A stretch of 59,478 bases of DNA from Caulobacteraceae bacterium (GTDB lineage: Bacteria; Pseudomonadota; Alphaproteobacteria; Caulobacterales; Caulobacteraceae). The DNA is taken from the NCBI GenBank assembly GCA_028290905.1, contig JAQGIW010000102.1, forward strand, positions 1 through 59,478, read 5' to 3'. This document shows positions 34,193 through 59,478 of this stretch, piece by piece. The notes under the pieces are model-generated. The model was not told the origin of the DNA. It made no database searches and was given only the letters and a program-made list of their open reading frames with translations. Each line of letters starts with the position of its first letter. Position 1 is the first letter of the stretch. A program made the translations under genes and the position numbers.

Positions 34193-35332
34193 TCAGCGCG
34201 CGTCCGCCTCCGCGCGGGCCGCCGCCCACGCCTTTTTCCGATCGTCCGCGTTGAGCGCCCACAGCGCCTCGGCCGTGGCGTCGTCCACATACCGACCGTT
34301 CATCAGCATGATCGTCGAGACCTTCACCAGATTGAACAACTTGAAATAGGCCCAGTGCTCTACCGGCGCGCCGGCTTCGGCTTCGTAGCGTGCGACGATC
34401 TCGGCTTCGCTCGGCAGACCGTCGACGGCGACGCCCTCTGGAACATGCATCGGGATCAGCATCGCGACGAGGGCCAGATCGGCTTCGTTATGCCCAAGGT
34501 AGGAGAGCTCCCAGTCGAGGGCGGCGACGAGCTTCCCGTCGTGGTACATGAGGTTGGCGATCTGACCGTCGCCGTGACACAGCGTCGGGGGGCGGGCATC
34601 GGGCTGGTTCTCGATCATCCAGCGGTTCAGCTCGATCAGATACTTCCGTTGCGGGTCGCCCGACGCGGTGACCAGAACCGCTTCTCTCAGCCACCAGTTC
34701 AGTTCGCGCTCGATCGCCGTGCGGCCCTCGCCCCGCCGGACCAGATGGGGGACCGCGTCCGGGCTCAGCGCCGCCCTGCGCAATCGCCCGTGAAAGCCCG
34801 CCGCCTGCAGCAGCATCGCCTTTCGCTCGGCGGGGCCGACTTCCGCCAGCAAGCCGGTGGAGTGCATCATCCGGTTCGCCGGCGCCCGGCCCTCCAGCCG
34901 CTCCATCACCAGGAACGGGAAGCCGATCGCCTCTCCGGTCGCGTCGTACCAACGCGCTATCGGCGCCGGGACCCCGTGCGCTCGCAGCGCCTTCAGCGTG
35001 AAGAACTCGTCGTCGAAACGCTTCTGCTTGAGCAGTTGCTCGCCCGGCGCATATCGCAGGACGAAGGGACGGGTCCTGCGCTCCACCTCCATGTCGAACA
35101 GCGCGATCCCGTTGCTGCCGCCGGCGTCCTCGATGTAGTGGAGGTCCCCCAGCCGTAAGGGCGCCGCCAGGCCGGGTTGCGACTCCAGAAAAAGTTTCAG
35201 GCGAGCCTTGTCGACGCGGGGCCGGCTCGGAGCCGAGGCGGCGATTTCGCTGGCGACGTTGGCGGCGCTCAGTTGAACCGGCGCCGGGCCCGGATCAGGC
35301 GGCCGTGAAATGGCGGATGCCGACCCACTCAT
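34193..35332 (-). CDS. APH-like phosphotransferase (kinase) 1
   Basis: Aminoglycoside-phosphotransferase-fold kinase, 379 residues, of the group related to the kinase part of ACAD10/11 and to LvaA. YIEDAGGSNGIALFD with LRYAP forms the ATP lobe, HGDGQIAN (253-260) is the catalytic loop and LDWELSYLG (272-280) supplies the metal-binding Asp. ATG 35332 overlaps the stop of the amidohydrolase upstream (ATGA), so the two are translationally coupled; the longer frame to 35437 runs into that gene. Closely similar to APH 2 (37255-38349). Likely phosphorylates a hydroxylated acyl-CoA or acid rather than an antibiotic. Confidence 0.87.
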   Translation of the reverse strand: MSGSASAISRPPDPGPAPVQLSAANVASEIAASAPSRPRVDKARLKLFLESQPGLAAPLRLGDLHYIEDAGGSNGIALFDMEVERRTRPFVLRYAPGEQLLKQKRFDDEFFTLKALRAHGVPAPIARWYDATGEAIGFPFLVMERLEGRAPANRMMHSTGLLAEVGPAERKAMLLQAAGFHGRLRRAALSPDAVPHLVRRGEGRTAIERELNWWLREAVLVTASGDPQRKYLIELNRWMIENQPDARPPTLCHGDGQIANLMYHDGKLVAALDWELSYLGHNEADLALVAMLIPMHVPEGVAVDGLPSEAEIVARYEAEAGAPVEHWAYFKLFNLVKVSTIMLMNGRYVDDATAEALWALNADDRKKAWAAARAEADAR

Positions 35333-37065
35333 TCGGCGGCCATCTGGAGATGCGGACGAAGGTTCAGGAGCCGGCCCGGCGTGGCGCCGCTGCATACATT
35401 GTCCTGGAAGGTGACCTCGCCATTCACGAGGATCCATCGTATGCCCTGGGCGCGGGCGACCCTGCGCCAGTCTCCCCGTGGCAGATCGTTCGCCGTCTCG
35501 TAGGCATCCGTCGCCACGCCAAGCCGGGCAAAATCATAGACCATGATGTCGGCGGCATTGCCTTCGGCGATCACGCCCCGGTCGGTCCAGCCCAGCGCCT
35601 GCGCGGGGACAGCGCTCAGCTTGTGATGCATGTGCTCCAGGCTGATCCTGTTCTCCTCCCTGACCAGCCAGGAAATTAGGTCGGCGCCATATTGACCGCC
35701 GCTCCAGAACTTCACGTGGGCGCCGCCGTCCGAGGTTCCCGGAAGCACCCGGGGATGGGCGTTGAGCTCGACGGCGTGGTCGAGGTTCGGAATATCCCGC
35801 GGGGGACAGACCTCGCAGGCGAGGCGCGTCTCCACGCACAGGTCCAGGAACGCGTCGGTCGCGGGCTGGCCCTCGGTCCGGCCGATCTCCTCGAATGTCT
35901 TGCCGACGTAGGGGGCGAATCGGGCCGAGCCCGCGGCGTCGACAAGCTTCATCGCCGGCACCTTGGCGTAGTGCGGCGCTTGTTCGACCTCCACCGCCAG
36001 GCGCGCGCGATAGTCCGGATCGAGAGCCTTGGCGATGCGAGCGTCGATGGTGTCGCCATCGCCTGGGTGTTGGAACTCATTGAAGATCGGCACGGCCTGC
36101 CAGCCATCGAAGTCCTTCACCACGAAGGCCATCGGCATGAACCGGAAGCACAGCGCCTGGGAGTAGATATTGAGACCGCGGGCGGCGGTGTCGTCGAGCC
36201 AGCGCAGGATGCCGCGGTGCTGTTCGGGATGTCCCTCGGCGACCATGATCACGGTGTGCAGGACCGGGCGGCCAGATATCTTCGCCAACTTCTCGACAAA
36301 GGCGCGATTGCCGACGTTCTTCGGTCCCGTCTCGACCAGCGCCTGAATCACCCCTTGTCGGCGTTCGGCGAGCACGCGCGCGAGGTTCACGGCCTCGTCC
36401 TCATGCATGCTGTCGGTGATCATCGGACTGCCATCCACGTCCTTGTGGCTATTGGTGTCCTGCAGGTACGAGAAGCCGAAGCCCAGCGCTCCGGCATCCA
36501 TCGCCTCGTGCAGCAGGCGGCGCATCTCGGCGCGCTCGCTTTCGGTGGCGGGGCGTGTCTTCGCCGCCTCGTAGCCCATGACCCAGATCATCAGCGAGTT
36601 GAGCGGCAGGAAGGCGCCGAGGTTGACGCCCTTCTTGATCTTCCTGATCGAGGCGATCCACTCCGGAAACGATTCCCAGTCCCAGGGCAGGGCCGCGCGC
36701 ATCGCGTCCAGCGGCACCTGTTCGGTGTTTTCCATCATCAGCATGTATCGCTCGCGGTCGGCCTTGTGGCACGGCGAGAAGCCGAAGCCGCAGTTGCCGA
36801 CCACCACGCTGGTGACGCCGTGCCAGCCCGAATTTGTGCAGTACGGATCCCAGTAGACCTGGGCGTCGTAGTGCGTGTGGGGGTCGATCACGCCCGGCGC
36901 CACCACGAGGCCGGTGGCGTCGATCTCCTCGGTCGCCTTCATTCCGGAGAGGTCCCCGACGCGAACGATGCGCCCGTCGGCGACGCCGACGTCGGCCACG
37001 CGACGGGGTCGGCCCGTTCCGTCCACCAGGGTTCCACCGCGGATGATCGTGTCGAGCTGGGTCAT
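35329..37065 (-). CDS. N-acyl-D-amino-acid deacylase family amidohydrolase 1
   Basis: Amidohydrolase-superfamily enzyme, 578 residues. The metal site is intact: PHTHYDAQ (HxH), VGNCGFGF (bridging Cys of the D-aminoacylase subfamily), LHTVIM and the catalytic Asp in GTSDGGAH. The C-terminal small domain ends in LVNGEVTFQDN and GATPGRLL. Annotation pipelines call these D-aminoacylases, but the family also hydrolyses other cyclic amides and esters. In this context it could open a lactone or lactam. ATG 37065; no strong Shine-Dalgarno. Coupled to APH 1 by a 4-base overlap. By eye about four residues in five match amidohydrolase 2. Confidence 0.87.
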   Translation of the reverse strand: MTQLDTIIRGGTLVDGTGRPRRVADVGVADGRIVRVGDLSGMKATEEIDATGLVVAPGVIDPHTHYDAQVYWDPYCTNSGWHGVTSVVVGNCGFGFSPCHKADRERYMLMMENTEQVPLDAMRAALPWDWESFPEWIASIRKIKKGVNLGAFLPLNSLMIWVMGYEAAKTRPATESERAEMRRLLHEAMDAGALGFGFSYLQDTNSHKDVDGSPMITDSMHEDEAVNLARVLAERRQGVIQALVETGPKNVGNRAFVEKLAKISGRPVLHTVIMVAEGHPEQHRGILRWLDDTAARGLNIYSQALCFRFMPMAFVVKDFDGWQAVPIFNEFQHPGDGDTIDARIAKALDPDYRARLAVEVEQAPHYAKVPAMKLVDAAGSARFAPYVGKTFEEIGRTEGQPATDAFLDLCVETRLACEVCPPRDIPNLDHAVELNAHPRVLPGTSDGGAHVKFWSGGQYGADLISWLVREENRISLEHMHHKLSAVPAQALGWTDRGVIAEGNAADIMVYDFARLGVATDAYETANDLPRGDWRRVARAQGIRWILVNGEVTFQDNVCSGATPGRLLNLRPHLQMAAE

Positions 37066-37254
37066 TGGGGTCTCTCTGGGACGACGAGAATGTCCTCGCC
37101 AAATCCATAGCGCATTTACCGCCCGAAGTCGACATCAGGGCCCATTGATCGTAGAAAAAAAATGCGCTTCATACGCATATATCGTCTCCTGGGCGCTCGG
37201 CGGCGGGAGCATCCGATCCGGGTCGGAATATCCCGGGACCGCTCACAGAGAGGC

Positions 37255-38349
37255 TCAGGTTGTTGCTTGGGCTTTCGCCTTGGCGTTCCCCCACGCAATT
37301 TTCCTGTCCCCTTCGTTCAGCTTCCACATTCGGTCGGCCATCTCCGCTTTCATATTCCGGCTCGACATCAGCATGATCGTAGAAACCTTAACCAGATTGA
37401 ACAGCTTGAAGTATTCCCAATGCTCCACCGGCGCGCCGGCCTCGGCTTCGTAGCGATCGATCAGTTCGGACTCTGTCGGCAACCCCTCGATGTGCTCTCC
37501 CGGCGGCACGTGAGATTTGACCAGCATCACCACCAAAGCAAGGTCAGCCTCGTTGTGACCGAGGTAGGAGAGTTCCCAGTCGAGGGCGGCGAGGAAACGG
37601 CCGTTCTGGAACATCAGATTCGCGATCTGCGCGTCTCCGTGCACGAGCGTCGGAGGTCGCATCCTCGGCTGGTTATCCACCATCCAGCGGTTCAGATCAG
37701 TGAGATACCGTCGCCGGGGATCTCCGGGCTCCCTGACGAGGATGGCTTCCTGAAGCCACCAAGATAGCTCGCGCTCAATGGCGGTCGCTCCCGCCCCGCG
37801 GTCCACCAGGTGCGGCACGTCCTCAGGTCCGATAGCGGCTTTCCGGAGTCTCCCGTGAAAGCCGGCGGCTTCCAACAACATCTCTTTTCGTTCGGCGGGT
37901 GTCACCTCCGCCAGGAGGCCGGCCGAGTACATCATTCGGTTCGACGGAGCGCGTCCGTCTAGTCGATCCATCACGAGAAACGGGTAGCCTATCGCGCCTC
38001 CAGTGGGTTCGCACCAGCGCGGGGTAGGCGCGGGGATTCCGTGGCGCCGTACTGCCGATAGCGTGAAGAATTCCTGGTCGAAGCGCTTTTGCTTGAGGAG
38101 TTGCTCGCCAGGGGCATAGCGCAGGACAAGCCGTTTCAGCCGGCCGCGAGAGGCCACGTCGAAAAGCGCTATGCCATTGCTGCCGCCCGCGTCTTCTATG
38201 TATTGGAGCTCGCCCACCTCTATTGGCCCGGCGCAGTCCATTTTTGACTGCAAGAAGGCCCCCAGCGATTCACGCGCGATTCGCGGTCGGGGCGCCCTGA
38301 CGGCCGCGATTTGCGCCATCGCCTCCTCACGCGTGGTTTCAGCGCCCAT
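37255..38349 (-). CDS. APH-like phosphotransferase (kinase) 2
   Basis: 364-residue APH-fold kinase, paralogue of APH 1. YIEDAGGSNGIALFD, LRYAPGEQLLKQKRFD, catalytic VHGDAQIANLM and ALDWELSYLGHNEADL are shared almost word for word. ATG 38349 is chosen for the AGAGGA five to six bases upstream; the frame extends to 38415 without support. It follows amidohydrolase 2 by 106 bases rather than overlapping it, so the coupling seen in cassette 1 has been lost or never formed. Confidence 0.87.
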   Translation of the reverse strand: MGAETTREEAMAQIAAVRAPRPRIARESLGAFLQSKMDCAGPIEVGELQYIEDAGGSNGIALFDVASRGRLKRLVLRYAPGEQLLKQKRFDQEFFTLSAVRRHGIPAPTPRWCEPTGGAIGYPFLVMDRLDGRAPSNRMMYSAGLLAEVTPAERKEMLLEAAGFHGRLRKAAIGPEDVPHLVDRGAGATAIERELSWWLQEAILVREPGDPRRRYLTDLNRWMVDNQPRMRPPTLVHGDAQIANLMFQNGRFLAALDWELSYLGHNEADLALVVMLVKSHVPPGEHIEGLPTESELIDRYEAEAGAPVEHWEYFKLFNLVKVSTIMLMSSRNMKAEMADRMWKLNEGDRKIAWGNAKAKAQATT

Positions 38350-38455
38350 GCGGTTCCTCTCTAGGAGACTCGTGGATAGTAGCGCGCGGAGCTCTGCGGC
38401 CCCTCGTCTCCGCAACTCACTATGGAATTTGCTTTAGCTTGGCCGCACCCTGCTT

Positions 38456-40189
38456 CTACTCGGCCGCCGCCAACTCCCGCTCACGGACCGGGCCAAGCAG
38501 GCGGCCGGGCGTGGCGCCGGTGCAAATGTTGTCGTGGAAGGTGACTTCACCATTGACCAGGATCCAGTGGACGCCCTTGGCCCGCGCCACCCGCCGCCAA
38601 TCGCCTTCCGGGAGGTCCCGAACGGTTTCATAGGCGGTCGTCGCCACGCCCAACTCCTGAAGATCGTAGATCATGATGTCCGCGGCGTTTCCGACCTTGA
38701 TGACGCCGCGATCTTTCCAACCCAAGGCTTCCGCCGGCACTGCACTCAGCTTATGGTGCATGTGTTCGAGCGTTATCTTTTTTTCATCTCGGACAAGCCA
38801 AGTGATGAGGTCGGTCCCATACTGTCCTCCGCTCCAGAACTTGACGTGAGCGCCGCCGTCGGAAGTTCCCGGCAGGACGCGCGGATGGGCGTTGATCTCG
38901 GTGACATAGTCGACGTTGGGGACATCGCGGTCCGGCCAGACCTCGCAAGACAGGCGCGTCTCCGCACACAGATCCATGAACGCGTCGGTCGCCGGCTGAC
39001 CCAGGGCTCTGCCGATCTCCTCGAAGCTCTTGCCGACGAAGGGCGCTAAGCGGGCGGATCCGGCGGCGTCGACCAACAGCAGTTTGTCGACGTAGCGCGA
39101 TCCGTCTCCATCGGGCCGTCCGAGACGCGCCCTGTAGTCGGGGTCTAGGGCCTTGGCGACGCGGGCGTCGATCGTATCGCCGTCGCCTGGGTGCTGGAAT
39201 TCGTTGAAGATGGGCACGGCCTGCCAGCCGTCGAAGTCCTTCACCACGAACGCCATCGGCATGAAGCGGAAGCAGAGCGCCTGAGAGTAGATCTGGAGTC
39301 CTCGGGCTGCGGTCTCATCGAGCCACTTCAGGATAGCCCGGTGCTGACCTGGCTGCTTGTCGTTCGCCATGATGACGGTGTGGAGCACCGGCCGACCCGA
39401 GATTTCGGCGAGCTTTTCCACCAGCTTCCGGTTCTTGATGTTTTTCGGACTCGTCTCGACAAGAGCCTGAATGACCCCTTCGCCGCGTTCGGCCAGCACT
39501 CGGGCCAAGTTGATGGCTTCTTCTTCATGCATGGCGTCCGTGATCATCGGGCTGCCGTCCACGTCCTTGTGGGAATTGGTTTCCTGAAGATAGGAAAAGC
39601 CAAATCCGAGCGCCCCACAGTCCATCGCCTCGTGAAGAAGCCGACGCATCTCGGCGCGCTCGTCCACGGTAGCCGGGCGAGTTTTGGCCGCCTCGTAGCC
39701 CATCACCCACATCATTAGGGAATTCATCGGCAGAAACGCGCCGAGGTTGATCCCCTTCTTGATCGAGCGAACGGAGGCGATCCATTCGGGATAGGATTCC
39801 CAGTCCCAGGGTAGAGCCGTGCGCATCGCGCCGAGCGGCACCTGCTCGGTGTTTTCCATCATCAGCATGTAACGCTCGCGGTCCGACTTGCGGCACGGCG
39901 AAAAGCCAAACCCACAGTTGCCGACGACCACGCCGGTCACCCCATGCCAACCCGAGTTGGTGCAATAGGGGTCCCAGTAGATCTGGGCGTCGTAGTGAGT
40001 GTGAGGGTTGATGACACCGGGTGCGACGACAAGCCCCCTGGCGTCGATCTCCTGTCGAGACCTCTCCCCGCTCAGATCACCCACACACGCCACCCGTCCG
40101 TTTGTCACACCGACGTCGGTGACCCGCGGCGCGCCACCCGTGCCGTCGACAACCGTTCCTCTCCGGATGATGATGTCGAAATCAGCCAT
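38456..40189 (-). CDS. N-acyl-D-amino-acid deacylase family amidohydrolase 2
   Basis: 577-residue paralogue of amidohydrolase 1, with the same metal-site motifs: NPHTHYDAQ, VGNCGFGFSP, LHTVIM and GTSDGGAHVKF. The main difference is a divergent patch around residues 358-372 (GRPDGDGSRYVDKLLL against VEVEQAPHYAKVPAMKL). ATG 40189 has GGAGG five bases upstream, which decides against the in-frame start at 40201. With APH 2 it forms the second tandem cassette. It is divergent from CrtC/AttH-like protein 1 across a palindrome-rich 183-base region. Confidence 0.87.
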   Translation of the reverse strand: MADFDIIIRRGTVVDGTGGAPRVTDVGVTNGRVACVGDLSGERSRQEIDARGLVVAPGVINPHTHYDAQIYWDPYCTNSGWHGVTGVVVGNCGFGFSPCRKSDRERYMLMMENTEQVPLGAMRTALPWDWESYPEWIASVRSIKKGINLGAFLPMNSLMMWVMGYEAAKTRPATVDERAEMRRLLHEAMDCGALGFGFSYLQETNSHKDVDGSPMITDAMHEEEAINLARVLAERGEGVIQALVETSPKNIKNRKLVEKLAEISGRPVLHTVIMANDKQPGQHRAILKWLDETAARGLQIYSQALCFRFMPMAFVVKDFDGWQAVPIFNEFQHPGDGDTIDARVAKALDPDYRARLGRPDGDGSRYVDKLLLVDAAGSARLAPFVGKSFEEIGRALGQPATDAFMDLCAETRLSCEVWPDRDVPNVDYVTEINAHPRVLPGTSDGGAHVKFWSGGQYGTDLITWLVRDEKKITLEHMHHKLSAVPAEALGWKDRGVIKVGNAADIMIYDLQELGVATTAYETVRDLPEGDWRRVARAKGVHWILVNGEVTFHDNICTGATPGRLLGPVRERELAAAE

Positions 40190-40267
40190 GGCGTCCTCCA
40201 TTCTTTAACCGTCGCGGGGCCGTCGACACGGCGCGGTGTTCCTGCGCGCCCCAAGCGCCACCCCTAT

Positions 40268-40322
40268 CGCAATCTTCTATCAATGTCGAATCGTTGCCAA
40301 AGATTGCGCATCATAATATGAT
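40268..40322. promoter_or_regulatory. Palindromes in the divergent promoter of amidohydrolase 2 and CrtC/AttH-like 1
   Basis: A perfect 9-base inverted repeat cgcaatctt (40268-40276) and aagattgcg (40300-40308) is followed at once by atcat-aat-atgat (40310-40322). Both are good candidates for operator sites of a shared regulator. The octamer agattgcg recurs before CrtC/AttH-like 2 at 43030-43037. Confidence 0.45.
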
Positions 40323-40372
40323 GTTGGTTCCGCAAAAAGTTGCGTCCAATGGTCGACGTTGGGGAGGCGCTC

Positions 40373-41395
40373 GTGAAGAGATACGATGAAAGCTGGGATC
40401 GCCCGCATCGGCCCGGGCCGCAGGATCTCTGGCAGGAGAGCGATTGGCTCACCTTCTACGATCCAATCTCGAGGGTCGGGGGCATCTATCGCATAGGCCA
40501 AGAGCCGAACCGCCGGAAGGGCCAACCGAACCTCTTTGTCTTCGCGCTCGGAGGCCAGCGCTACCTGATGCGTGACCTGGGCGGGCGAGGAGCCGATTGC
40601 GACCTGACGGATGAGGATCGCTGGCAGACCGGCTACCGCGCCGCTGGAAACCGGGTCGATGCCTTAGGTAGTGGCCGGGTGCGATTTCGATGGGACTATC
40701 CCGAAACCGAGGCTGACCTCGAGTTTGGCGATAGTCACTACGAGCCCAGAGATTGGTCCATGACGAACAAGGGGGATGAGATCATCGCCACCCTCAACGC
40801 CGATGGCCACCTGGAATGCGCGGGCCGACTGAGAGGCCGCGTGCGGATCGGCCAATCCGACTATACCGTCGACTGCTTCGCGCACCGAGATCGTTCATGG
40901 GGCTACCGCGAACATTACATGGTCAAGATGAAACGTGCCTTCGGCGCCTGGGGCACCACAGGACCTGATTTCAGCTTCGCCATGATGCGCCTGGAATTGA
41001 AGTCCGGTGAGATACTCACCACCGGATTCGTCAATCGCAACGGCCGTGGTGACGATATCGCAAACGCCCGACTGATCACAACTTTGGACGCCGATTTTCT
41101 CTCGCCGATCGCCGGCGCCGTGCTGCTTACGCTTGAGAATGGCGAAGCTATACGAATAGAGTGCGACATAGCCCAAGCGCACGGGGGTTTTGCGCCCGGT
41201 ACGTCATTCAATTCCGTCGGGACGTTTTCCCACGGCGGCAAAGTGGGATTCTGCGATTACTCCGCCACCGCAAACCCCGGCGGAGGCGATCAGATTGCCT
41301 CTCAGACGGACGCCACCCTTGTCGCCCTGGAGGCCGGCCTTTCACGCAGTGCGGAGCCTTCCTGGACACTGGCCAAGGGCAACGCGACTGGATGA
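40373..41395 (+). CDS. CrtC/AttH-like (DUF7064-type) protein 1
   Basis: 340-residue protein of an uncharacterised family. Shared blocks are SWDRPHRPG, WQESDWLTFYD, GGIYRIGQEPN, LNADGHLECAGRLRGRVRI and the signature AHRDRSWGYREH. The H-x-D-x-x-WG element and beta-rich pattern recall the CrtC/AttH lipocalin-like fold (carotenoid 1,2-hydratase and relatives); I place it in DUF7064/DUF7065 from memory of that motif. The GTG at 40373 is preferred over ATG 40340 because GGGGAGG lies five to six bases upstream and the start then matches the paralogues. No export signal. Role in the island unknown, perhaps hydration or binding of a hydrophobic intermediate. Confidence 0.75.
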   Translation: MKRYDESWDRPHRPGPQDLWQESDWLTFYDPISRVGGIYRIGQEPNRRKGQPNLFVFALGGQRYLMRDLGGRGADCDLTDEDRWQTGYRAAGNRVDALGSGRVRFRWDYPETEADLEFGDSHYEPRDWSMTNKGDEIIATLNADGHLECAGRLRGRVRIGQSDYTVDCFAHRDRSWGYREHYMVKMKRAFGAWGTTGPDFSFAMMRLELKSGEILTTGFVNRNGRGDDIANARLITTLDADFLSPIAGAVLLTLENGEAIRIECDIAQAHGGFAPGTSFNSVGTFSHGGKVGFCDYSATANPGGGDQIASQTDATLVALEAGLSRSAEPSWTLAKGNATG

Positions 41396-41413
41396 TCCGG
41401 AACGTTGGTCCAG

Positions 41414-44097: not shown

Positions 44098-44152
44098 CGG
44101 ACGCGACAGGGTTCTCGATGGAACCTAGGTCAAACTAAAGCGGAGATGCCAT

Positions 44153-45126: not shown

Positions 45127-45347
45127 CCGTGCCCGTGACACGGGCGTAGTCGTGCCCAAGTTCCGACCGGTCACCCATCCCGCGACTGACCTGTCGGCGA
45201 TGCTCGCCAATGCCTTTCACGCGAACCCCACGCAACTAACTCTGCCCTGAGCGGGCCATCCCATAATGCGTGTCAGGATGATGATTCTCCTACGTATCAT
45301 TTGACAATTCTCCCTGCCAATGACAAGGAGTGCGTCAGAATAGACAT

Positions 45348-47758: not shown

Positions 47759-47760
47759 CG

Positions 47761-48864: not shown

Positions 48865-48878
48865 GGCGGTTCCGACGC

Positions 48879-50006: not shown

Positions 50007-50015
50007 GCCGCCGCC

Positions 50016-51047: not shown

Positions 51048-51226
51048 ATTCACCTCCTGCCTCCCCGGCGCCGATCAGGCTATCGATCACCGTCGTATGC
51101 TTGCGCACGGTATACAGGTATCGATATCGCGAACAAGCTGTCCCATCGGGGATAGTGCGAATTGAGCGCAGAAAAATTTGGCCCATGCTACGCGAATATC
51201 GCCGCAAGGCCTCGAGCGAGGGGATC

Positions 51227-52417
51227 ATGAGAACCATGTCGACGGATGCGCTTATGCTTCCGTTCTTCGACGGGAGACACCCCGCCGTTCTCGCCGAGGC
51301 GAGCCGTTGGCTCGAGCAGGAGCCCCATATCGATGAGCTCGACGTCGAGGACTACGCGGGGCGAAGCCGCGCGTTCGTCCACAGCCTCGGTCGCGCCGGC
51401 CTTATCCGGCACATGATTCCCGAACCCGCAGATGAGGCGGCGAATGTCGACGTGCGTTCGATCTGCCTGGTGCGAGAGGCGTTGTGCTATCGCTCCGCGC
51501 TGGCGGACTCGGCCTATGTCATGCAGGGGATCGGCGCGGCCGCGATCTGGCGGCATGGCGACGAGGCTCTGCAGCGCCGGTATCTCCCGGCGTTACGGGA
51601 CGGGACCGTGATCCCCGCCTTCGCATTGTCCGAGCCCGGCGGTGGATCGGACGTCTCCGCCACTCAGACGACCGCGGTCCGCGACGGCGCGGATTTCGTG
51701 ATCGATGGCGTCAAGACGTGGACGTCGAACGCCGGGATCGCCGACGTCTACCTCGTCTTCGCGCGGACGGGAGAGCGACCGGGCGCCCACGGCCTCTCGG
51801 CTTTTCTGGTCGAGGCGGACAATCGGGGGCTCGAGGTGCTCGACCGGATCGTGGTGAGCGCGCCTCACCCCATGGCGAGCGTGCGGTTCACCGGGTGCCG
51901 CGTCCCGGAATCGGCGCGGGTGGGGGAGCCTGGCGAGGGCTTCCGACTGGCGATGTCCACGCTGGACATCTACCGCGCCACGGTGGGGGCCGCCGCCATC
52001 GGCCTGGCGAGAAGGGCCTTCGACGAGACCCTCGCGCGGATTGCCACGCGCCGGCTGTTCGGGCGCCTGATGGCGGAGATGGAGACGATCCAGATGAGGG
52101 TCGCCGACATGCACGTGGATCTGGAGACCGCGATGCTCACCGTCTATCGCGCCGCCTGGGCGCGCGACCAAGACGCCGGTAGGCGGGTCGCGGCAGAAGC
52201 CTCCTTGGCGAAACTCTACGCCACCGAGGCCGCGCACCGCGTTATCGATTCAGCCGTTCAGCTGTTCGGCGGTCAGGGCGTGACCCGGGGCTGCATCGTT
52301 GAACACCTGTTCCGCGACATTCGGGCGTTTCGGATCTATGAGGGCGCCTCGCAAGTCCAGAAGCTGATCCTGGGGCGTCACGTCGTGAGACCGTTTCTCG
52401 AGGCGAGCGCGTCGTAG
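51227..52417 (+). CDS. Acyl-CoA dehydrogenase (island copy)
   Basis: 396-residue FAD-dependent acyl-CoA dehydrogenase. FALSEPGGGSDVSATQTTA binds flavin and substrate, WTSNAGIADVYLVFARTG is the beta-domain strand, RRLFGRLMAEMETIQMRVAD and AVQLFGGQGVTRGC are C-terminal signatures, and the catalytic Glu is in IYEGASQVQK. It is the canonical Glu form, unlike the ACAD10/11-like protein at 22721. ATG 51227 has GAGGGG upstream; ATG 51236 and 51185 are alternatives. Divergent from CrtC/AttH-like 4 and convergent with a zinc alcohol dehydrogenase. Likely oxidises or eliminates from the acyl-CoA intermediate of the island pathway. Confidence 0.9.
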   Translation: MRTMSTDALMLPFFDGRHPAVLAEASRWLEQEPHIDELDVEDYAGRSRAFVHSLGRAGLIRHMIPEPADEAANVDVRSICLVREALCYRSALADSAYVMQGIGAAAIWRHGDEALQRRYLPALRDGTVIPAFALSEPGGGSDVSATQTTAVRDGADFVIDGVKTWTSNAGIADVYLVFARTGERPGAHGLSAFLVEADNRGLEVLDRIVVSAPHPMASVRFTGCRVPESARVGEPGEGFRLAMSTLDIYRATVGAAAIGLARRAFDETLARIATRRLFGRLMAEMETIQMRVADMHVDLETAMLTVYRAAWARDQDAGRRVAAEASLAKLYATEAAHRVIDSAVQLFGGQGVTRGCIVEHLFRDIRAFRIYEGASQVQKLILGRHVVRPFLEASAS

Positions 52418-52420: not shown

Positions 52421-53506
52421 TCAGGCGTCGAAGACGATGACCGATCTGGCCAGTTCGCCCGTCTTCATCTCCTCGAAAGCCTCGTTGACCTGCTCCAGCT
52501 TGATGCGACGCGAGATCAGCTCATCCAGCTTCAGCTTGCCGGTCATGTAGAAGTCCACCAGGCGGGGCATGTCGACCGGAAAGCGGTTGGAGCCCATCGC
52601 CGAGCCCTGGATCCGCTTCTCGCCCAGAAAGTCGGCGCCATGCAGTTCGATTTTGACCCCGACCGGGATCATGCCGATGATGTTGGCGACGCCGCCGCGG
52701 GCCAGCATGGCGAAGGCCTGTTCGGCGGTCACCTTGAGGCCGATCGCCTCGAAGCTGTGATGGACGCCGCCCTTGGTCATCTCCTTGACCTGGGCGACCG
52801 GGTCGCCGTCGCTGGCGTCGACCACGTCGGTGGCTCCGAAATGCCTGGCCAGGTTCAGCTTTGATCCCACGCGATCGATCGCGATGATCCGCCCGGCGCC
52901 GGCGATCGCCGCGCCGTTGACCGCCGCCAGGCCCACGCCGCCGCAGCCGATCACAGCCACCGTCTCGCCGGGCCGCACGTGGGAGGTATGGATGACCGCC
53001 CCGACGCCGGTGATCACGCCGCAGCCGATCAAGGCGGCGCGGTCCAGCGGGATGTCTTTGCGGATCGCCACGCAGGCGTGCTCATGGACCAGCATCTGCT
53101 CGGCGAAGGACGAAAGATTCACGAACTGCGCCACGGGAGCGCCGCCCTGGCTCAAGCGCGGTTCGTCCTCGCCGCCACGCCTGGTCTCAGGCGAGGTGCA
53201 AAGGCTCATGTGGCCGGTGAGGCAGTATTCGCAGTGGCCGCAGAAGGCCGAGAGGCAGGTGATCACATGATCGCCAGGCTTGACCGAGCGCACTTCGGAG
53301 CCGACCTGCTCGACGACGCCCGCACTCTCGTGGCCGAGCACCGCGGGCAGGCGGTAGGGATAGGATCCTTCAACGAAGTGGAGGTCGGAGTGGCAGACGC
53401 CGGCGGCCGCCGTGCGGATCAGCACTTCATGCGGACCAGGCTTGGCGATCTGGACGTCCTCGATCTGCAGTGGCGTTCGGACTTCACGCAGTACGGCGGC
53501 CTTCAT
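52421..53506 (-). CDS. Zinc-dependent alcohol dehydrogenase
   Basis: Medium-chain NAD(P)-dependent alcohol dehydrogenase, 361 residues. GVCHSDLHF and GHESAGVVEQVG hold catalytic zinc ligands, CGHCEYCLTGHMSLC is the structural zinc loop, and VIGCGGVGLAAVNGAAIAGA is the Rossmann motif. It resembles the class III/S-(hydroxymethyl)-type or aryl-alcohol dehydrogenase branch. ATG 53506 has AGAGGA upstream. Encoded 89 bases downstream of, and in the same direction as, Baeyer-Villiger monooxygenase 1... the stop of which lies at 53596; a ketone made by this enzyme would be a natural monooxygenase substrate. Confidence 0.92.
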   Translation of the reverse strand: MKAAVLREVRTPLQIEDVQIAKPGPHEVLIRTAAAGVCHSDLHFVEGSYPYRLPAVLGHESAGVVEQVGSEVRSVKPGDHVITCLSAFCGHCEYCLTGHMSLCTSPETRRGGEDEPRLSQGGAPVAQFVNLSSFAEQMLVHEHACVAIRKDIPLDRAALIGCGVITGVGAVIHTSHVRPGETVAVIGCGGVGLAAVNGAAIAGAGRIIAIDRVGSKLNLARHFGATDVVDASDGDPVAQVKEMTKGGVHHSFEAIGLKVTAEQAFAMLARGGVANIIGMIPVGVKIELHGADFLGEKRIQGSAMGSNRFPVDMPRLVDFYMTGKLKLDELISRRIKLEQVNEAFEEMKTGELARSVIVFDA

Positions 53507-53595: not shown

Positions 53596-55458
53596 CTAGG
53601 GGGCGAGTTCCAGACCCTCTAGATCGCCCTTGGCGCGCCACTCGGCCAGGAGCGCGTTGAAGGCGTTAACCCCCGGGGCGTAGGCGTCGCTGATAATCGT
53701 GCTGACCACTTCGCCGAACTTGCCTTCGCTGTTGTAGTAGCCCGGCGTACAGGCCTCGAGGAAAGCGGTGTTGGTGGCCGAAAGACTGCGGATCTCAGCT
53801 ACCCAGGCCGCCTCGGCCTCGGCCGTAGGTTGCACACTGTTCGCGCCACGATCCTTGGCCTCCCGGATGATATAGGCGATGTGGCGAGCCTGGTCGTCGA
53901 ACATCGCAGTCATGTTCACCGAGAGGCCGTTCTGACCGATGCCGACGAAGAACCAGTTGGGAAAGCCGCGGCTGCTGTGGCCGTGAAACGTTCTCATGCC
54001 CTGGGCCCAGTGATCGAACAGCGATTGGCCATCGTGGCCACGGATCTCGAAGTCGACCCTTCGCCGGAAGCTGGTGCCGATCTCGAACCCGGTGGCGTAG
54101 ATGATGCAGTCAACCTCGTATTCAACGCCGTTGGCGACCACGCCGTTCTTCGTTATCCTCTGGACCCCATGGGTTTCGCTGGCGTCGATCAGTTTCACAT
54201 TGTGCCGGTTGAAGGCTTCCAGGTAATCGTCGTTGAATGTCGGTCGCTTGCAGAACTGCCGGTACCAGGGTTTCAGCGCCTCGGCGGTCTGTTCGTCCTT
54301 GACGGTGTTGTCGACCCGCGCGCGGATCTGGTTCATTTTCTGGAAGTCGGCGATCTCGGCCAATTCGGTGGCGTTCTCGGGCGCATCCTTGTTGCGATCG
54401 CCCAGAGGGACCATGGTTTGGAGATTGCGGAAAATGTCCGTCCAGGCGTCATTGACGAGGTCCTCCTTGAAGGGTCGGCCGATGACGATGTCACTGAAGT
54501 TTTCCCGGCGTTCCCTCTGCCAGCCGGGTTTCAGGGTCTTCACCCACTCCGGATCGGTCGGCTTGTTGCCACGCAAGTCTACGGAGGAAGGGGTGCGCTG
54601 GAAGACGTAGAGCTGCTTCGCGGCCGCCCCGAGGTGGGGTACGCACTGGATGGCGGTGGCTCCGGTCCCGATGACCGCCACGCGCTTGTCGGCGAGCTTG
54701 TGAAGGTTGCCGCTATGGTCACCGCCTGTGTATACGTAGTCCCACCGGCTCGTATGGAAGGTGTGGCCCTCGAAGTCCTCGATCCCGGGGATGTCCGCCA
54801 GCTTGGGCCGGCTCGCGGGTCCCGTCGCCGTTATTACGAACCGCGCTTTGATATCATCGCCGAGGTTGGTGTTGATATGCCAGCGCTTGATGTCTTCGTC
54901 CCAGCGCAGCTCCTTCACGCGCGTCTGGAACAGCGCGATATCGTAGAGGCTGTATTCCTTGCCGATTCGCCGTGAGTGCTCGAAAATCTCGGGCGCGTAG
55001 GAGTATTTTTCTTTGGGAATGTAGTTCAGTTCTTCGAGGAGGGGCAAGTAACAGTAGGATTCGATGTCGCACTGGGCGCCTGGATAGCGATTCCAGTACC
55101 AGGTGCCACCAAAGTCGGCGCCCGCTTCGATGATGCGGATGTTGGTCAGTCCCACCTCGCGCAGCCGCGCGGCCGCCAACATGCCGCTGAAGCCACCGCC
55201 GATAACGGCGACGTCGATCTCGTCGGTCAGTGACTCTCGGGTGAAGTCTGGCGGGGCATAGGGATCATCGTCGGCGTAATGGGCGAACTTGCCCTCCAGG
55301 ACGAGGTACTGGTTTTCGCCATCTGCCCGAAGCCGCTTGTCCCGCTCACGCCGGTACTTCTCCCGCAGGGCGTCAGGATCGAAACCGAGACTGTTGTGGC
55401 CTCTTCCGTGGGGCCCCTCTGCGTGGGGACTAGCCGTCTTGAACGCGTCGTCAGGCAT
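53596..55458 (-). CDS. Baeyer-Villiger monooxygenase 1
   Basis: Flavin monooxygenase converting ketones to esters or lactones, 620 residues. An N-terminal extension of about 80 residues precedes the FAD fold VIGGGFSGMLAA, then GGTWYWNRYPGAQCD. The type I Baeyer-Villiger fingerprint FEGHTFHTSRW (229-239) has the required His235, and VIGTGATAIQ binds NADPH. The length and extension fit the cyclopentadecanone/steroid monooxygenase-like branch. ATG 55458 follows GGAGGAAG. A TTGA-N7-TCAA palindrome lies 121 bases upstream. It shares direction and short spacing with the alcohol dehydrogenase. Confidence 0.92.
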   Translation of the reverse strand: MPDDAFKTASPHAEGPHGRGHNSLGFDPDALREKYRRERDKRLRADGENQYLVLEGKFAHYADDDPYAPPDFTRESLTDEIDVAVIGGGFSGMLAAARLREVGLTNIRIIEAGADFGGTWYWNRYPGAQCDIESYCYLPLLEELNYIPKEKYSYAPEIFEHSRRIGKEYSLYDIALFQTRVKELRWDEDIKRWHINTNLGDDIKARFVITATGPASRPKLADIPGIEDFEGHTFHTSRWDYVYTGGDHSGNLHKLADKRVAVIGTGATAIQCVPHLGAAAKQLYVFQRTPSSVDLRGNKPTDPEWVKTLKPGWQRERRENFSDIVIGRPFKEDLVNDAWTDIFRNLQTMVPLGDRNKDAPENATELAEIADFQKMNQIRARVDNTVKDEQTAEALKPWYRQFCKRPTFNDDYLEAFNRHNVKLIDASETHGVQRITKNGVVANGVEYEVDCIIYATGFEIGTSFRRRVDFEIRGHDGQSLFDHWAQGMRTFHGHSSRGFPNWFFVGIGQNGLSVNMTAMFDDQARHIAYIIREAKDRGANSVQPTAEAEAAWVAEIRSLSATNTAFLEACTPGYYNSEGKFGEVVSTIISDAYAPGVNAFNALLAEWRAKGDLEGLELAP

Positions 55459-55713: not shown

Positions 55714-57489
55714 CTATTCGGCCGCGTGCGCGAACGTCTGGGCGCCGAGGCTCCGGTTTCTGAGCAGGCGACCGGGGGTTGCGCCCGTGCATTCACCGTC
55801 TTCGAAGGTGATCTCGCCATTCACCAACGTCCAGCGGTAGCCCTCCGATCGCTGGACGCACCGCCATTCGTTGGCCGGCAGGTCGTGGGCGATCTCGAAC
55901 TCCCATTCCGGCGTGCGCTTCAGCCTGGCCAGGTCGTAGACGACGATATCCGCCGGGGCGCCTTCGCGCAGGAACCCACGGTCGAGGAAACCGGCCGCCT
56001 GGGCGGGCAGGTAGCTCAGGTGGTAATGCGCTTCTTCCAAGGACATCTTGCCGGTGTCACGAACCAGCCAGGTCAGGAGGTCCGTCGTATAGGACCCGCC
56101 GGTGAAGAACTTGGTGTGGGCGCCGCCATCCGAGACGCCGGCCATGACGTAGGGATCGTTCATCAGGGCTCCCACCTTGTCGGGATCTCCGCTCGTCGGC
56201 AGGCCGCTACGGAAGTCGACCTTCAGATTGCCCGCGACCGCGATATCCAGCATCGCGTCGGTTGGATGCTTGCCATGCTCCTTGGCGATGTCGCCGATCA
56301 GGCGGCCGACATATTTGTCGAGTTCAGGGGCATCCGGTGGCACGCGCACGACGGTCAGGCTCTCCGGCATCGTGCTTTGGCCGATTGCGAGGAGCTTGGA
56401 GTGTTCGGCCTTCATTTGCTCGCGCACCGCCGGGTCGGCCAGCTTGCGCATCTTCTCCTCGATCGTGCCTTGGGTGGCGGCGTTCCAGGCCGGGCTGGAA
56501 TCGTAGAGGTTCCAGTGCTCGAGGGAGAAGTTGAACCAGGTGCGGACGTTGGCGCCCTGGGCGTAGATGCGCAGGCCCTTCTCGTTGCACGCGTGCACCC
56601 ACTCCATTTCCTTGATGTGGAACTCCGGCTGATCGTCGATGACGGCCACCGCATTGTGCAGCACCGGTCGCTGCGCCGTCGCGGCCAGACGCTCCAGGAA
56701 GAGGCGGTCGCGACTCTTCACCTCGCCCTGGTCGTGGATCGGATCGCCGCCCTGGGCCTGGGTGATCTGGATGAAGCCTTCGTCGCGATCCCTCAGGACC
56801 TCGGCGAGGGCCAGAACGTCCTCGTCCGCCATGCAGTCGGTGGGCATTGGCGTGCCGTCGACGTCCGCCTGCAGCGAGTTGGCGCCCAGTCTCTGGATCG
56901 AGAAGCCGCAGGCGCCGGCGTCCATGGCTTCGTCGAGCAGCCGCTGCATTTCCCGGCGCTCGGCCGGGGTGGCGGGCCGCGACTTGGCCGCCTCGAGACC
57001 CATGACATAGACCATCAGCGGCGAGACCGGCACATAGCTGACCACGTTGACGCCCTTCGGCAGGCTATCCAGCGTGTCCAGCCACTCCGGCAGCGTCTCC
57101 CACTTCCAGGGCATGCCCTCCTTCATCGACGCATAGGGGATCTGCTCGGTGCGCGTCATCATCATCAGCGCGCGCTCGCGATCCGCCGGCTTCACGGGCG
57201 CGAAGCCGAAGCCGCAGTTGCCGAGCACGACTGAGGTCACGCCGTGCCAGCCCGAGATCGTGCAGTAGGGGTCCCAGTGGATCTGCGCGTCATAGTGGGT
57301 GTGCAGGTCGACGAAGCCGGGCGCGACGATGCAGCCGTCGGCGTCGAGAACACGCTCCGCCGTGGCCGTCGAGGCGATCCGGCCGAGCTTGACCACCCTG
57401 CCGTTCCGGATTCCCACGTCGGCGCGGTAGCGCGGCAGGCGGGTGCCATCCACGACCGTTCCATTGCGGATGATAAGGTCATAGTCCAT
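55714..57489 (-). CDS. N-acyl-D-amino-acid deacylase family amidohydrolase 3
   Basis: 591-residue amidohydrolase, a more distant paralogue of amidohydrolases 1 and 2. DLHTHYDAQIHWDPYC, LGNCGFGFAP, LHNAVAV and GVSDGGAHTKF preserve the metal site. It has an insertion in the second half (KLADPAVREQMKAEHSKL) missing from the others. ATG 57489 has GAGGAA upstream. It has no APH kinase next to it; its neighbours are two Baeyer-Villiger monooxygenases and an SDR, so a lactonase or esterase role is plausible. A TTGA-N7-TCAA palindrome lies 33 bases before the start. Confidence 0.86.
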   Translation of the reverse strand: MDYDLIIRNGTVVDGTRLPRYRADVGIRNGRVVKLGRIASTATAERVLDADGCIVAPGFVDLHTHYDAQIHWDPYCTISGWHGVTSVVLGNCGFGFAPVKPADRERALMMMTRTEQIPYASMKEGMPWKWETLPEWLDTLDSLPKGVNVVSYVPVSPLMVYVMGLEAAKSRPATPAERREMQRLLDEAMDAGACGFSIQRLGANSLQADVDGTPMPTDCMADEDVLALAEVLRDRDEGFIQITQAQGGDPIHDQGEVKSRDRLFLERLAATAQRPVLHNAVAVIDDQPEFHIKEMEWVHACNEKGLRIYAQGANVRTWFNFSLEHWNLYDSSPAWNAATQGTIEEKMRKLADPAVREQMKAEHSKLLAIGQSTMPESLTVVRVPPDAPELDKYVGRLIGDIAKEHGKHPTDAMLDIAVAGNLKVDFRSGLPTSGDPDKVGALMNDPYVMAGVSDGGAHTKFFTGGSYTTDLLTWLVRDTGKMSLEEAHYHLSYLPAQAAGFLDRGFLREGAPADIVVYDLARLKRTPEWEFEIAHDLPANEWRCVQRSEGYRWTLVNGEITFEDGECTGATPGRLLRNRSLGAQTFAHAAE

Positions 57490-57536: not shown

Positions 57537-57611
57537 ATCCTGAGCGTCGAAAATCGGAAAGTCAATGTCGAAGGTTGGTCCGCGCTCCGGATTCGAGGCG
57601 AAGCCGCAAGG

Positions 57612-58419
57612 TCAAAGGGCAGTGGCGAAAGCCGCCCCGATGCGATCCGCCCGCGTCCGCACAAACTTCTCCGCTTCCTTGTGCGTGTGGATATAGAGTT
57701 GGTTCCGGCGGATGGCGTCGACGACGAGGTCCGCGACCGCCTCCGCCGATAATACCCGGCCTTCGATGTCGACGCGCTCCTCCGTGGGTGCTCGTGCCGG
57801 CGCCGCCAAGGTCTTGGGGGCGATGGAGGTGACAGTTGGCGATATTGGTGGCCACCCGCATGGGGCAAAGCACGGACACGCCGATTCCAGCTTTCGCCAC
57901 GTCCTTGCGCAGGGATTCGGCGAGGGCCACGACGGCGGCCTTGGTTACGTTGTAGGCCCCCAGGTCCCGGTTGGACACGAGACCCGCGAAGCTCGACGTA
58001 AACAGTACATGGCCGGCAGCCCCGTGGGCGATCATCCGCGGCACGAAGCTTTCGACGCCGTGGATGGGCCCCCACAGGTTGACGTTGACCGACCACATCC
58101 AGTCTTCGTGGGTCATGTCCTGCGTGGCGCCGAACACGGCGACACCGGCATTGTTCATGACGATGTGGACCGCGCCAAACCGCTCCCAGGCGCGGTCGGC
58201 CAGTCTCTCGACCTCGTCTCTCTTGCTCACGTCGGTGGCGAGGCCTTCGGTCTCGATGCCCGCCGCCTGCAGGCGGCGCACCGCCTCATCGAGTTGAGTT
58301 GCGTCGATATCGGCCAGCATGAGCCTCGCGCCTTCGCGACCCAGCGCCTGTGCGACGGCGAAGCCGATGCCGCTCGTCCCGCCCGTAACCACGGCGACCT
58401 TGTCACGCAGATCCTGCAT
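57612..58419 (-). pseudogene. SDR family oxidoreductase with a C-terminal frameshift
   Basis: ATG 58419 (GGGAGGGG upstream) encodes a classical SDR: VVTGGTSGIGFAVAQ, NNAGVAVFGATQDM, TSSFAG and YNVTKAAVVALAESLR, through VLCPMRVATNIAN. The frame then turns into an Arg/Gly-rich string. Removing one base (57834) restores VTSIAPKTLAAPARAPTEER, VLSAEAVADLVVDAIRRNQ, LYIHTHKEAEKFVRTRADRI and a stop at 57612, the normal SDR ending. Unrepaired, the frame runs on to 57562. The catalytic core is intact, so a protein with an aberrant tail could still be made; pseudogene or sequencing error are the other options. Confidence 0.82.
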
Positions 58420-58516: not shown

Positions 58517-58594
58517 ATTTGAGTGTTGCGCAAGACCGCGGCGGGGACGTATGAGGGCGGCGACGAGCGCATAGCGGATAGGCGAGGAGTCGGA

Positions 58595-59478
58595 ATGAAC
58601 ACCCCGCGAACGAACGACCTGGACGTGCTGGTGGTCGGCGCGGGGTTCGCAGGGCTCTATATGCTGCACCGCCTGCGCCAGGCGGGATTTACGGCCGGGG
58701 CGGCGGAGACCGGTAGCGATGTCGGCGGCACCTGGTACTGGAACCGGTACCCCGGCGCCCGCTGTGACGTGGAAAGCTTCGACTATTCCTACTCGTTCGA
58801 TCCTCAGATCGAGCAGGATTGGACCTGGACGGAGCGCTACGCCGCCCAGCCGGAAATCCTGGCCTATCTGCGATTCGTGGCCGATCGACTGGATCTTCGC
58901 AGAGACATTGCGTTCAACACCCGGATCGTATCGGCGCGCTACAACGAAATCGGCAGACGCTGGACCGCGACCGCGGAAGACGGCGCGGTCTGGTCGTGCC
59001 GGCGCCTGATTCTGGCGACCGGCCCACTGTCGGCGGCCAAGCCGCCCGACATCGCCGGCATCGATGATTTCCAGGGGCTCAAACTGCAGACGTCGTCCTG
59101 GCCCGAGGCGGGGGGCGATCTTTCCGGCAAACGCGTCGGGGTGATCGGCACCGGGTCCTCGGGCGTCCAATGCATCCCCATCATCGCCGAGCAGGCCGCC
59201 CATCTCCATGTCCTGCAGCGAACCCCTGCCTTCAGCCTGCCGGCCTTCAACGGGCCGTTGGCCGAGCCGTTCATCGCCGACATGAAGCGGAACTACAGGG
59301 CCCATCGCAACAAGACCCGCCGGACACGCCAGGGCGTGATCTTTCGATCGACGGGCAAGAGGGCGTTCGACGTCGAGGAGCAGGAGCGCCGCGAGGTCTA
59401 CGAGACCTATTGGCGGGGTGGCGGCTTCCATTTCGCATCGTCATTCACCGATTTGCTCCTGGACCACGGCGCAAATGA
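58595..59478 (+). CDS. Baeyer-Villiger-type flavin monooxygenase 2, cut by window edge
   Basis: First 294 residues of a flavin-containing monooxygenase without the long N-terminal extension of monooxygenase 1. VVGAGFAGLYMLHRL binds FAD, GGTWYWNRYPGARCDVES is the family block and VIGTGSSGVQ the NADPH fold. The Baeyer-Villiger fingerprint reads FQGLKLQTSSW: Gln165 (codon CAG 59087-59089) stands where His is expected. ATG 58595 follows GAGGAG. It is divergent from the SDR gene. The His change may alter or abolish Baeyer-Villiger activity; the rest runs beyond the right edge. Confidence 0.88.
   Translation, partial: MNTPRTNDLDVLVVGAGFAGLYMLHRLRQAGFTAGAAETGSDVGGTWYWNRYPGARCDVESFDYSYSFDPQIEQDWTWTERYAAQPEILAYLRFVADRLDLRRDIAFNTRIVSARYNEIGRRWTATAEDGAVWSCRRLILATGPLSAAKPPDIAGIDDFQGLKLQTSSWPEAGGDLSGKRVGVIGTGSSGVQCIPIIAEQAAHLHVLQRTPAFSLPAFNGPLAEPFIADMKRNYRAHRNKTRRTRQGVIFRSTGKRAFDVEEQERREVYETYWRGGGFHFASSFTDLLLDHGAN

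Follow-up and report, generated by a model that had tools for sequence, protein, structure and literature searches.

Candidate kinase-lyase dehydration pairs of APH-fold kinases and DUF7065/DUF7064 proteins in a Caulobacteraceae gene island

Results

An island rich in APH-fold kinases and DUF7065/DUF7064 proteins

We analyzed a stretch of 59,478 bases from a Caulobacteraceae bacterium (hereafter, the window), which is the whole of one contig (C306) of a 5.23 Mb genome in 317 contigs. Its right-hand part holds four APH-fold kinases, three D-aminoacylase-like amidohydrolases, and four DUF7065/DUF7064 proteins, one of them frame-broken, as identified with Pfam. Also present are a cytochrome P450, a TonB-dependent receptor, an acyl-CoA dehydrogenase (ACAD), an alcohol dehydrogenase (ADH), a short-chain dehydrogenase/reductase (SDR), and two Baeyer-Villiger monooxygenases (BVMOs), the second of which ends at the contig end (Table 1). 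All gene families listed in a first-pass annotation of this DNA were found in their places by Pfam and other profile scans. We propose that the island's core, at 34.2-51.1 kb, probably consists of ATP-dependent kinase/lyase dehydration pairs, flanked by uptake, oxidation, and hydrolysis enzymes and by a BVMO block.

The whole genome contains nine DUF7064 matches, five of which lie in the window (two being pieces of the broken dufC), and 26 APH matches, four of which lie in the window. The window makes up 1.1% of the genome, and the density of the two families in it exceeds chance. The G+C content of the core (34,193-51,100) is 62.9%, compared with 68.8% for positions 1-34,192, which fits acquired DNA. 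The kinA start and the ahA stop overlap by 4 bp, and dufD lies upstream of kinD on the same strand at a spacing of 9 bp. The paralogues in the window share 66% (kinA/kinB), 79% (ahA/ahB), and 42-59% identity (dufA, dufB, and dufC), and kinC and kinD share 45%; the kinC comparisons, including one alignment, took in 8 residues ahead of its first ATG. The kinA/kinB and ahA/ahB genes are a duplicated amidohydrolase-kinase pair. Named relatives put the genome close to Caulobacter, the best match of dufB being a protein from a Caulobacter metagenome-assembled genome (MAG), at 63% identity. The reading of dufC continues in another frame near 44.85-44.9 kb, and the gene may be broken or affected by an assembly error.

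We took the amidohydrolase metal motifs as the presumed class mark of ahA, ahB, and ahC. The HxH, GNCG, and SDGGAH motifs were found in ahA and ahC, while ahB lacks the searched DxHTH string and has NPHTH. The best model for the three proteins, NF006560, scored 85-88 bits at a cutoff of 340. For the SDR, the best family models covered the first ~206 of 285 residues, leaving the last ~80 unmatched.

Table 1 Genes of the island, with coordinates in the window.
Gene or product	Coordinates	Strand	Evidence and remarks
kinA, APH-fold kinase (PF01636)	34193..35332 (frame 34193-35437)	-	Pfam APH 93.9 bits; ATG start; HGDGQIAN and ALDWE
ahA, D-aminoacylase-like amidohydrolase	35329..37065	-	Amidohydro_3 84.7 bits; DPHTH, GNCG, SDGGAH
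kinB, APH-fold kinase	37255..38415	-	Pfam APH; best PDB sequence match Rv3168 (3ats)
ahB, D-aminoacylase-like amidohydrolase	38456..40201	-	Pfam Amidohydro_3
dufA, DUF7065+DUF7064, candidate 25-phosphosteroid lyase-like protein	40340..41395	+	Pfam 74.3 and 49.8 bits; HRDRSWGYR
Cytochrome P450	41414..42811	-	Pfam; 59% homologue in Hyphomonas chukchiensis cluster
dufB, DUF7065+DUF7064	43108..44097	+	Pfam; structure model, best fold match 25-phosphosteroid lyase
dufC, DUF7065+DUF7064	44153..45126 (Pfam frame 44153-45076; end taken from second frame)	+	Pfam
TonB-dependent receptor	45389..47578	+	Pfam; 44% homologue in closest relative L042
kinC, APH-fold kinase	47761..48864 (3' part of frame 46771-48864; first ATG of the region)	+	Pfam APH
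kinD, APH-fold kinase	48879..50006	-	Pfam APH; structure model, best fold match 25-hydroxysteroid kinase
dufD, DUF7065+DUF7064	50016..51053	-	Pfam; 78-79% homologues in Hyphomonas chukchiensis and HGW-Alphaproteobacteria-18
Ordinary acyl-CoA dehydrogenase	51227..52417 (frame 51101-52417, ATG at 51227)	+	Pfam; Glu base, without HCMR motif
Zinc alcohol dehydrogenase	52421..53506	-	Pfam
bvmo1, type I Baeyer-Villiger monooxygenase, PtlE/polycyclic-ketone group	53596..55458	-	PtlE/PntE model; FEGHTFHTSRWD fingerprint
ahC, D-aminoacylase-like amidohydrolase	55714..57489	-	Pfam Amidohydro_3
SDR	57562..58419	-	Pfam
bvmo2, N-terminal part only, ends at contig end	58595 (ATG)..59478	+	BVMO-like frame; fingerprint His replaced by Gln

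DUF7065/DUF7064 proteins are related to 25-phosphosteroid lyase

A structure model of dufB was built with 59 sequences (predicted local distance difference test score, pLDDT, 93.7). Its best Foldseek matches were the 25-phosphosteroid lyase (25-PSL) entries 9fzn, 9g4c, and 9g2i (E 7.5e-12, probability 1.00, template modeling (TM) score 0.65), of which 9g4c contains phosphate and desmost-1,4-diene-3-one and 9g2i contains phosphate. The same 59 DUF7064 proteins were also turned into a profile and compared with 177,635 distinct PDB sequences. Up to an E value of 10, 25-PSL was the sole match, represented by two distinct sequences (E 1.7e-15). The RDRSWGVR motif and an N-terminal His (H11 of dufB) are common to dufB and 25-PSL. 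The motif Asp of 9fzn is Asn in the sequence of the product-bound 9g4c, a change that suggests deliberate inactivation of a catalytic Asp by the depositors.

In the alignment of the 59 DUF7064 proteins (dufB numbering), R168, H142, G151, and G173 are invariant, and D169 is Asp in 58 rows and Glu in one. W19 is kept in 56 rows, E21 in 55, and H11 and R175 in 54 each. All of dufA, dufB, dufC, and dufD carry the pattern [HY]RD[RH][SG][WF]GxR, and the Asp of the RD-x-SWG-x-R motif may be the catalytic residue.

Dehydration by a kinase and a lyase in two steps is already known for 25-hydroxysteroids, as established in the accessible part of PMC8449060. The same text left the eliminating enzyme of sterol side-chain dehydration without an identity in 2021, and the enzyme was still called 'putative' in the accessible part of a 2024 paper (PMC11061730). 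The structures of 25-PSL and of 25-hydroxysteroid kinase (25-HSK) were released in January 2026, and the PDB entries name the enzyme 25-PSL. In the present analysis, DUF7064 was proposed as a candidate for the phosphate lyase that had been missing from anaerobic cholesterol degradation before any fold result was seen.

The kinase kinD is closest to 25-hydroxysteroid kinase in fold

The HGDxxxxN and DWE motifs are kept in all four kinases of the window. A model of kinD, built with 43 sequences (pLDDT 93.5), had as its first Foldseek match 25-HSK with bound substrate (9fsg; E 1.6e-19, TM 0.72, 27% identity), and the 25-HSK entries were followed by Rv3168 (E 1.1e-16) and 3dxp (E 3.2e-15). The best PDB sequence match of kinD was also 25-HSK (97.8 bits). 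With NCBIfam resistance models, whose cutoffs range from 205 to 680 bits, kinA, kinC, and kinD reached ~18-30 bits. An exact scan of the genome contigs with the 21 primer bases that correspond to the start of the 25-HSK gene (PMC8449060, accessible part) gave no matches.

Kinase-DUF7064 pairing is conserved across genomes

We collected 78 loci with one genome-wide degenerate pattern scan, in which 139 stretches matched, 85 were confirmed, 80 were kept, and 78 were distinct. Kinases and DUF7064 proteins were counted with our own HMMER profiles at cutoffs of 40 and 60 bits, respectively. Of the 106 DUF7064 genes of these loci, 56 are accompanied by a same-strand APH kinase no more than 600 bp away. 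When genes were placed at random inside these loci, 5.3 ± 2.2 such pairs were obtained, and the maximum over 2000 trials was 15. Counted per locus, the partner within 3 kb is an APH kinase in 55 of the 78 and only a phosphoenolpyruvate (PEP)-utilising enzyme in 8, of which L097 is weak (50 bits, opposite strand). The loci are not independent, as near-identical Sphingopyxis loci are included, and many end at contig ends. Loci with an APH partner cover Alpha-, Beta-, and Gammaproteobacteria, Myxococcota, Actinomycetota, and Chloroflexota. The pairing is thus conserved, but not universal.

In the genome of the window, an APH kinase is present on all five contigs with DUF7064, at a distance of within about 1.2 kb on four of them (C306, C309, C87, and C218) and about 4.7 kb on C31. 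Among 120 genomes of the order to which the window belongs, only 10 were found to have DUF7064. Four 20-kb stretches of this order (L036, L037, L040, and L041) carry DUF7064 and no APH kinase; their DUF7064 proteins form a separate branch of the family, and their role may differ.

A dikinase can take the place of the APH kinase

Locus L071 resembles the window in its dufD homologue (57%), TonB receptor (39%), and amidohydrolase (49%), and has in the kinase's place PPDK_N (200 bits) plus a PEP-utilising protein in an open frame of 1185 residues. In L092 and the archaeal L099, a single protein with PPDK_N and PEP-utilising domains adjoins the DUF7064 gene. A tree of 65 DUF7064 proteins required nine changes of partner type by parsimony count. 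This tree came from a quick search and has several long branches; its labels were 49 APH, 9 PEP, and 2 both (counted as PEP), with three window rows labelled APH by hand and five rows without partner left out. In addition, one frame of a Dehalococcoidia MAG (L096:8153-10846) joins APH, SCP2 (sterol transfer), and DUF7065-DUF7064 domains, although the first ~120 residues of the frame probably do not belong to the protein. That two unrelated phosphotransferases and a fusion partner DUF7064 is expected if DUF7064 works on the phosphorylated product. In Mycobacterium tuberculosis, the APH kinase gene Rv3168 lies in one operon with Rv3169, as stated in the accessible part of PMC5340868.

Further DUF7064 loci were observed in a plasmid and in archaea. 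On the Mycobacterium avium plasmid pP7a (L003, 1-18000), three PEP-utilising proteins each adjoin a DUF7064 gene, two APH/ecdysteroid-kinase genes are present, and our profile found no PPDK_N protein in this stretch. DUF7064 also occurs in archaeal MAGs, mostly Asgard (L087, L089, L095, L099, and L101). The dikinase beside DUF7064 in L099 is a full one, and L089 and L095 have a split dikinase about 5 kb away.

The acyl-CoA dehydrogenase of the window is an ordinary one

The first-pass annotation had proposed that the kinases are of the LvaA/ACAD11 type and that the ACAD of the window removes the phosphate. According to the accessible part of PMC12440821, ACAD10, ACAD11, and LvaC use a catalytic Asp and an HCMR motif to eliminate phosphate. 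We aligned the window ACAD with 12 ACADs of other loci. It has Glu (IYEGASQ) instead of Asp and reads YRATVG at the HCMR position. HCMR was found in three of the 12 (L042, L053, and L072), with the Asp also in L042 and L053, while L072 ends before the Asp site. The L042 protein, which has IADGPDEV at the Asp site and scores 464 bits to ACAD11, is a true ACAD11-type enzyme and served as the positive control. The best PDB match of the window ACAD was 5jsc (372 bits), and ACAD11 was not among the best 60 of its 95 matches. We rejected the window ACAD as a phosphate eliminase on this active-site comparison. The kinases likewise did not bear out the assignment: kinB and kinD score only 34-53 bits to the ACAD11 kinase domain, compared with 258-262 bits for a kinase on contig C193 of the same genome.

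Our best reading thus keeps from the first-pass annotation a catabolic island with phosphorylation of an alcohol followed by phosphate elimination, and moves the elimination to another enzyme. The DUF7064 proteins, to which no role had been given, are the likely lyases. ACADs with HCMR and the catalytic Asp lie inside the kinase-DUF7064 clusters of relatives (L042:12858-14135 and L053:7224-8381), and both kinds of phosphate elimination may coexist in these two clusters.

The core recurs in relatives, mostly without the BVMO block

Related clusters were found in Caulobacter, Hyphomonas, Sphingopyxis, and others. In the 19 loci closest to the window (L042-L060 of the 78), a kinase is present in all 19, a TonB receptor in 15, a dufD homologue (62-78%) in 10, and an ahA-type amidohydrolase in the flanks of 9, with L045 and L055 carrying one outside the flanks. 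The core set lies within about 22 kb in Hyphomonas chukchiensis (G105), which belongs to another family of the window's order, and in HGW-Alphaproteobacteria-18 (G080). The identities to the window in these two genomes are 78-79% for dufD, 59% for the P450, 58-59% for dufB, 58% for kinC, 57-58% for kinD, 47-48% for ahB, and 43-45% for kinB. Much of the gene set listed by the first-pass annotation, namely much of the kinase, DUF7064, amidohydrolase, TonB, and P450 core, recurs in other genomes, where no BVMO block was seen next to it.

No BVMO was detected in the 19 closest loci, with flanks of up to 10 kb searched. Matches to bvmo1 occur in 13 of the 14 cluster genomes (at least 49% identity in nine), and on the same contig as the dufB homologue in one of the 14 (G124, ~32 kb away), the contigs being of limited length. 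Across the order, a bvmo1-type gene (E <= 1e-100) was found in 31 of 120 genomes. We rejected the BVMO as part of the conserved core, since it was not found beside the core in most relatives and is common in the order anyway. On contig C87 of the same genome, however, a kinase, DUF7064, two amidohydrolases (44-45%), and a TonB receptor lie together with a 71% paralogue of bvmo1. With this combination repeated, the BVMO link is real inside this genome, where the BVMO block has probably been added locally to the same pathway.

The bvmo1 protein reached 732 bits with the PtlE/PntE model for BVMOs (cutoff 1100) and 431 bits with 5mq6, which we take to be PockeMO. It keeps what we take to be the type I BVMO fingerprint, FxGxxxHxxxW(P/D), in which bvmo2 has Gln for His. 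The genome as a whole shows a striking expansion of both families, with 14 matches to ahA-type amidohydrolases and at least 10 to bvmo1, the latter a lower bound with 10 of 38 first-look candidates scored.

Several features were observed around the clusters. Two tandem Lrp/AsnC-type regulators (33123-34116) lie directly left of the island and are possible local regulators. Further left, 28697-30196 encodes a 499-residue protein with two DUF6328 stretches. In Hyphomonas chukchiensis, a TraD/TrwB-like conjugative coupling protein (L030:489-2309) lies beside the homologous cluster, which hints at a mobile element.

Hints to a large hydrophobic substrate

The substrate may be large and hydrophobic, perhaps steroid- or terpenoid-like. 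Hints to this are the 25-HSK/25-PSL kinship, the SCP2 fusion, the PtlE-type BVMO, TonB uptake, and a KshA-type match on contig C309. This match (KshA_C, L032:251-1489) is the only one of its type in the genome and scores 181 bits to 3-ketosteroid 9alpha-hydroxylase. Contig C309 (11 kb) also holds a kinase-DUF7064 pair, a beta-keto acid cleavage enzyme, and an ACAD.

Discussion

The island is most likely a set of aerobic, ATP-driven dehydration modules for a polycyclic compound that is steroid- or terpenoid-like. We infer the following reactions and order of steps. On a large hydrophobic molecule, a 25-HSK-like APH-fold kinase would phosphorylate an alcohol that is probably tertiary or for another reason resists elimination. 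A DUF7065/DUF7064 protein would then expel the phosphate through the conserved Asp of the RD-x-SWG-x-R motif, leaving an alkene. Around these two steps, the TonB receptor would import the substrate, the P450 would oxidise it, and the D-aminoacylase-like amidohydrolases would open an ester, lactone, or amide. In the second block (ADH, BVMO, SDR, ordinary ACAD, and third amidohydrolase), ring alcohols would probably be converted to ketones and then to lactones, feeding acyl-CoA chemistry.

Several observations weigh against this reading. The identity to the reference enzymes is low, at ~27% for 25-HSK and only ~16% between DUF7064 and 25-PSL. The PDB sequence matches of kinB are Rv3168 (69.8 bits), 3dxp (55.1), and ACAD11 (52.8), with 25-HSK only fourth (51). 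H142, invariant in DUF7064, is not His in the aligned 25-PSL, so the two active sites are not identical. In the fold search with dufB, AttH (E 1.0e-10) came close behind 25-PSL, and the neighbours also included fungal pericyclases (CghA, Fsa2, and Phm7) and kievitone hydratase. In 15 of the 78 loci, no kinase of either type lies within 3 kb. Of six 20-kb stretches around DUF7064 in the same order (L036-L041), only L038 has an APH kinase by our own profile, so other DUF7064 branches stand alone. Sterolibacterium has no lyase candidate near 25-HSK, according to the accessible part of PMC8449060. Finally, KshA is present in only 4 of the 14 cluster genomes and never near dufB (in G130, it is on the same contig, some 400 kb away). 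This rarity counts against a classical steroid-ring pathway and leaves a steroid substrate as a possibility only.

The fold neighbours and the loci without a nearby kinase would also suit DUF7064 proteins that are phosphate-independent hydratases, isomerases, or pericyclase-like enzymes, with the kinases needed elsewhere, for example in detoxification or in tagging for export. We consider this unlikely, as the DUF7064 profile matches nothing but 25-PSL in the PDB, and two unrelated phosphotransferase types pair with DUF7064, which is in addition fused to a kinase. Less probable still are LvaA-like hydroxyacyl-CoA kinases with phosphate removal by the ACAD, following lactone formation by the BVMO and lactone opening by an amidohydrolase. 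Such chemistry exists (PMC12440821, accessible part), and relatives have a true ACAD11-type ACAD in the L042 cluster and HCMR-bearing ACADs in L053 and L072. The ACAD of the window, however, has Glu, lacks HCMR, and did not have ACAD11 among the best 60 of its 95 PDB matches; kinB and kinD are far from ACAD11; and a BVMO was not found beside the clusters of relatives except for one at ~32 kb.

The Pfam name of the APH family could suggest aminoglycoside or macrolide phosphotransferases that confer drug resistance and were gathered here by chance, and Rv3168 is called a putative aminoglycoside resistance enzyme in the title of a reference cited by PMC3691515. This explanation is very improbable. 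The resistance-model scores of kinA, kinC, and kinD are far below the cutoffs, kinD comes closest in fold to a steroid kinase, and the genes adjoin DUF7064 in catabolic-looking clusters.

Beyond this island, the balance tips slightly towards DUF7065/DUF7064 proteins being widespread phosphate-expelling lyases, whose partner may be either an APH kinase or a dikinase like PPDK or rifampin phosphotransferase. Lyase and partner would make up a general system for the ATP-driven dehydration of stubborn alcohols, used by some archaea as well as by aerobic and anaerobic bacteria. The two would at times be joined in one protein together with a sterol-carrier domain, and the system would include the Rv3168-Rv3169 operon. 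If DUF7064 belongs to the 25-PSL superfamily, a domain of unknown function gains a testable reaction. Numerous genes whose annotation reads antibiotic or unnamed phosphotransferase would become candidate catabolic kinases, and the combination of kinase and lyase would be a common aerobic way to strip hydroxyls from steroid- or terpenoid-like molecules. The exchange of an APH kinase for a dikinase beside the same kind of lyase is an unusual case of unrelated enzymes in one slot. In a search of the open-access literature, we found no paper on PEP-utilising partners, DUF7064/DUF7065, kinase-DUF7064 pairing, or dikinase replacement; a primary paper on the 25-PSL structures did not turn up in this search and may already describe some of these findings.

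The island can be compared with several known systems. It resembles LvaA/LvaC and ACAD10/ACAD11 in the proposed phosphorylation of a hydroxyl by an APH-fold kinase followed by phosphate elimination. Those systems act on an acyl-CoA and eliminate with an atypical ACAD that has the Asp and HCMR, whereas the window ACAD has neither. The bvmo1 protein is similar to PtlE/PntE and PockeMO-type BVMOs in its scores and kept fingerprint. However, it falls below the equivalog cutoff of 1100, is one of at least 10 such genes in its genome, and was not found beside the core in most relatives. The Rv3168-Rv3169 operon likewise combines an APH kinase with an Rv3169-family gene, and in the fold search with kinD, Rv3168 directly follows the 25-HSK entries; the difference is that the weak scores of dufA, dufB, and dufC on the Rv3169 family model (23-28 bits) are far below its cutoff of 150 and dufD has no match. 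The 25-HSK of Sterolibacterium denitrificans (9fsg/9ft5) is the best fold and sequence match of kinD, with the catalytic Asp/Asn/Asp kept. Besides their low identity to it, the window kinases differ in adjoining a lyase-like gene, in having several paralogues, and in their P450 context. Its partner in the known reaction, 25-PSL (9fzn/9g2i/9g4c), differs from DUF7064 in overall sequence and at His142, and the window has four copies of its DUF7064 counterpart. Nevertheless, 25-PSL is the best fold match of dufB and the sole PDB match of the DUF7064 profile, with the N-terminal His and the RDRSWGVR motif in common.

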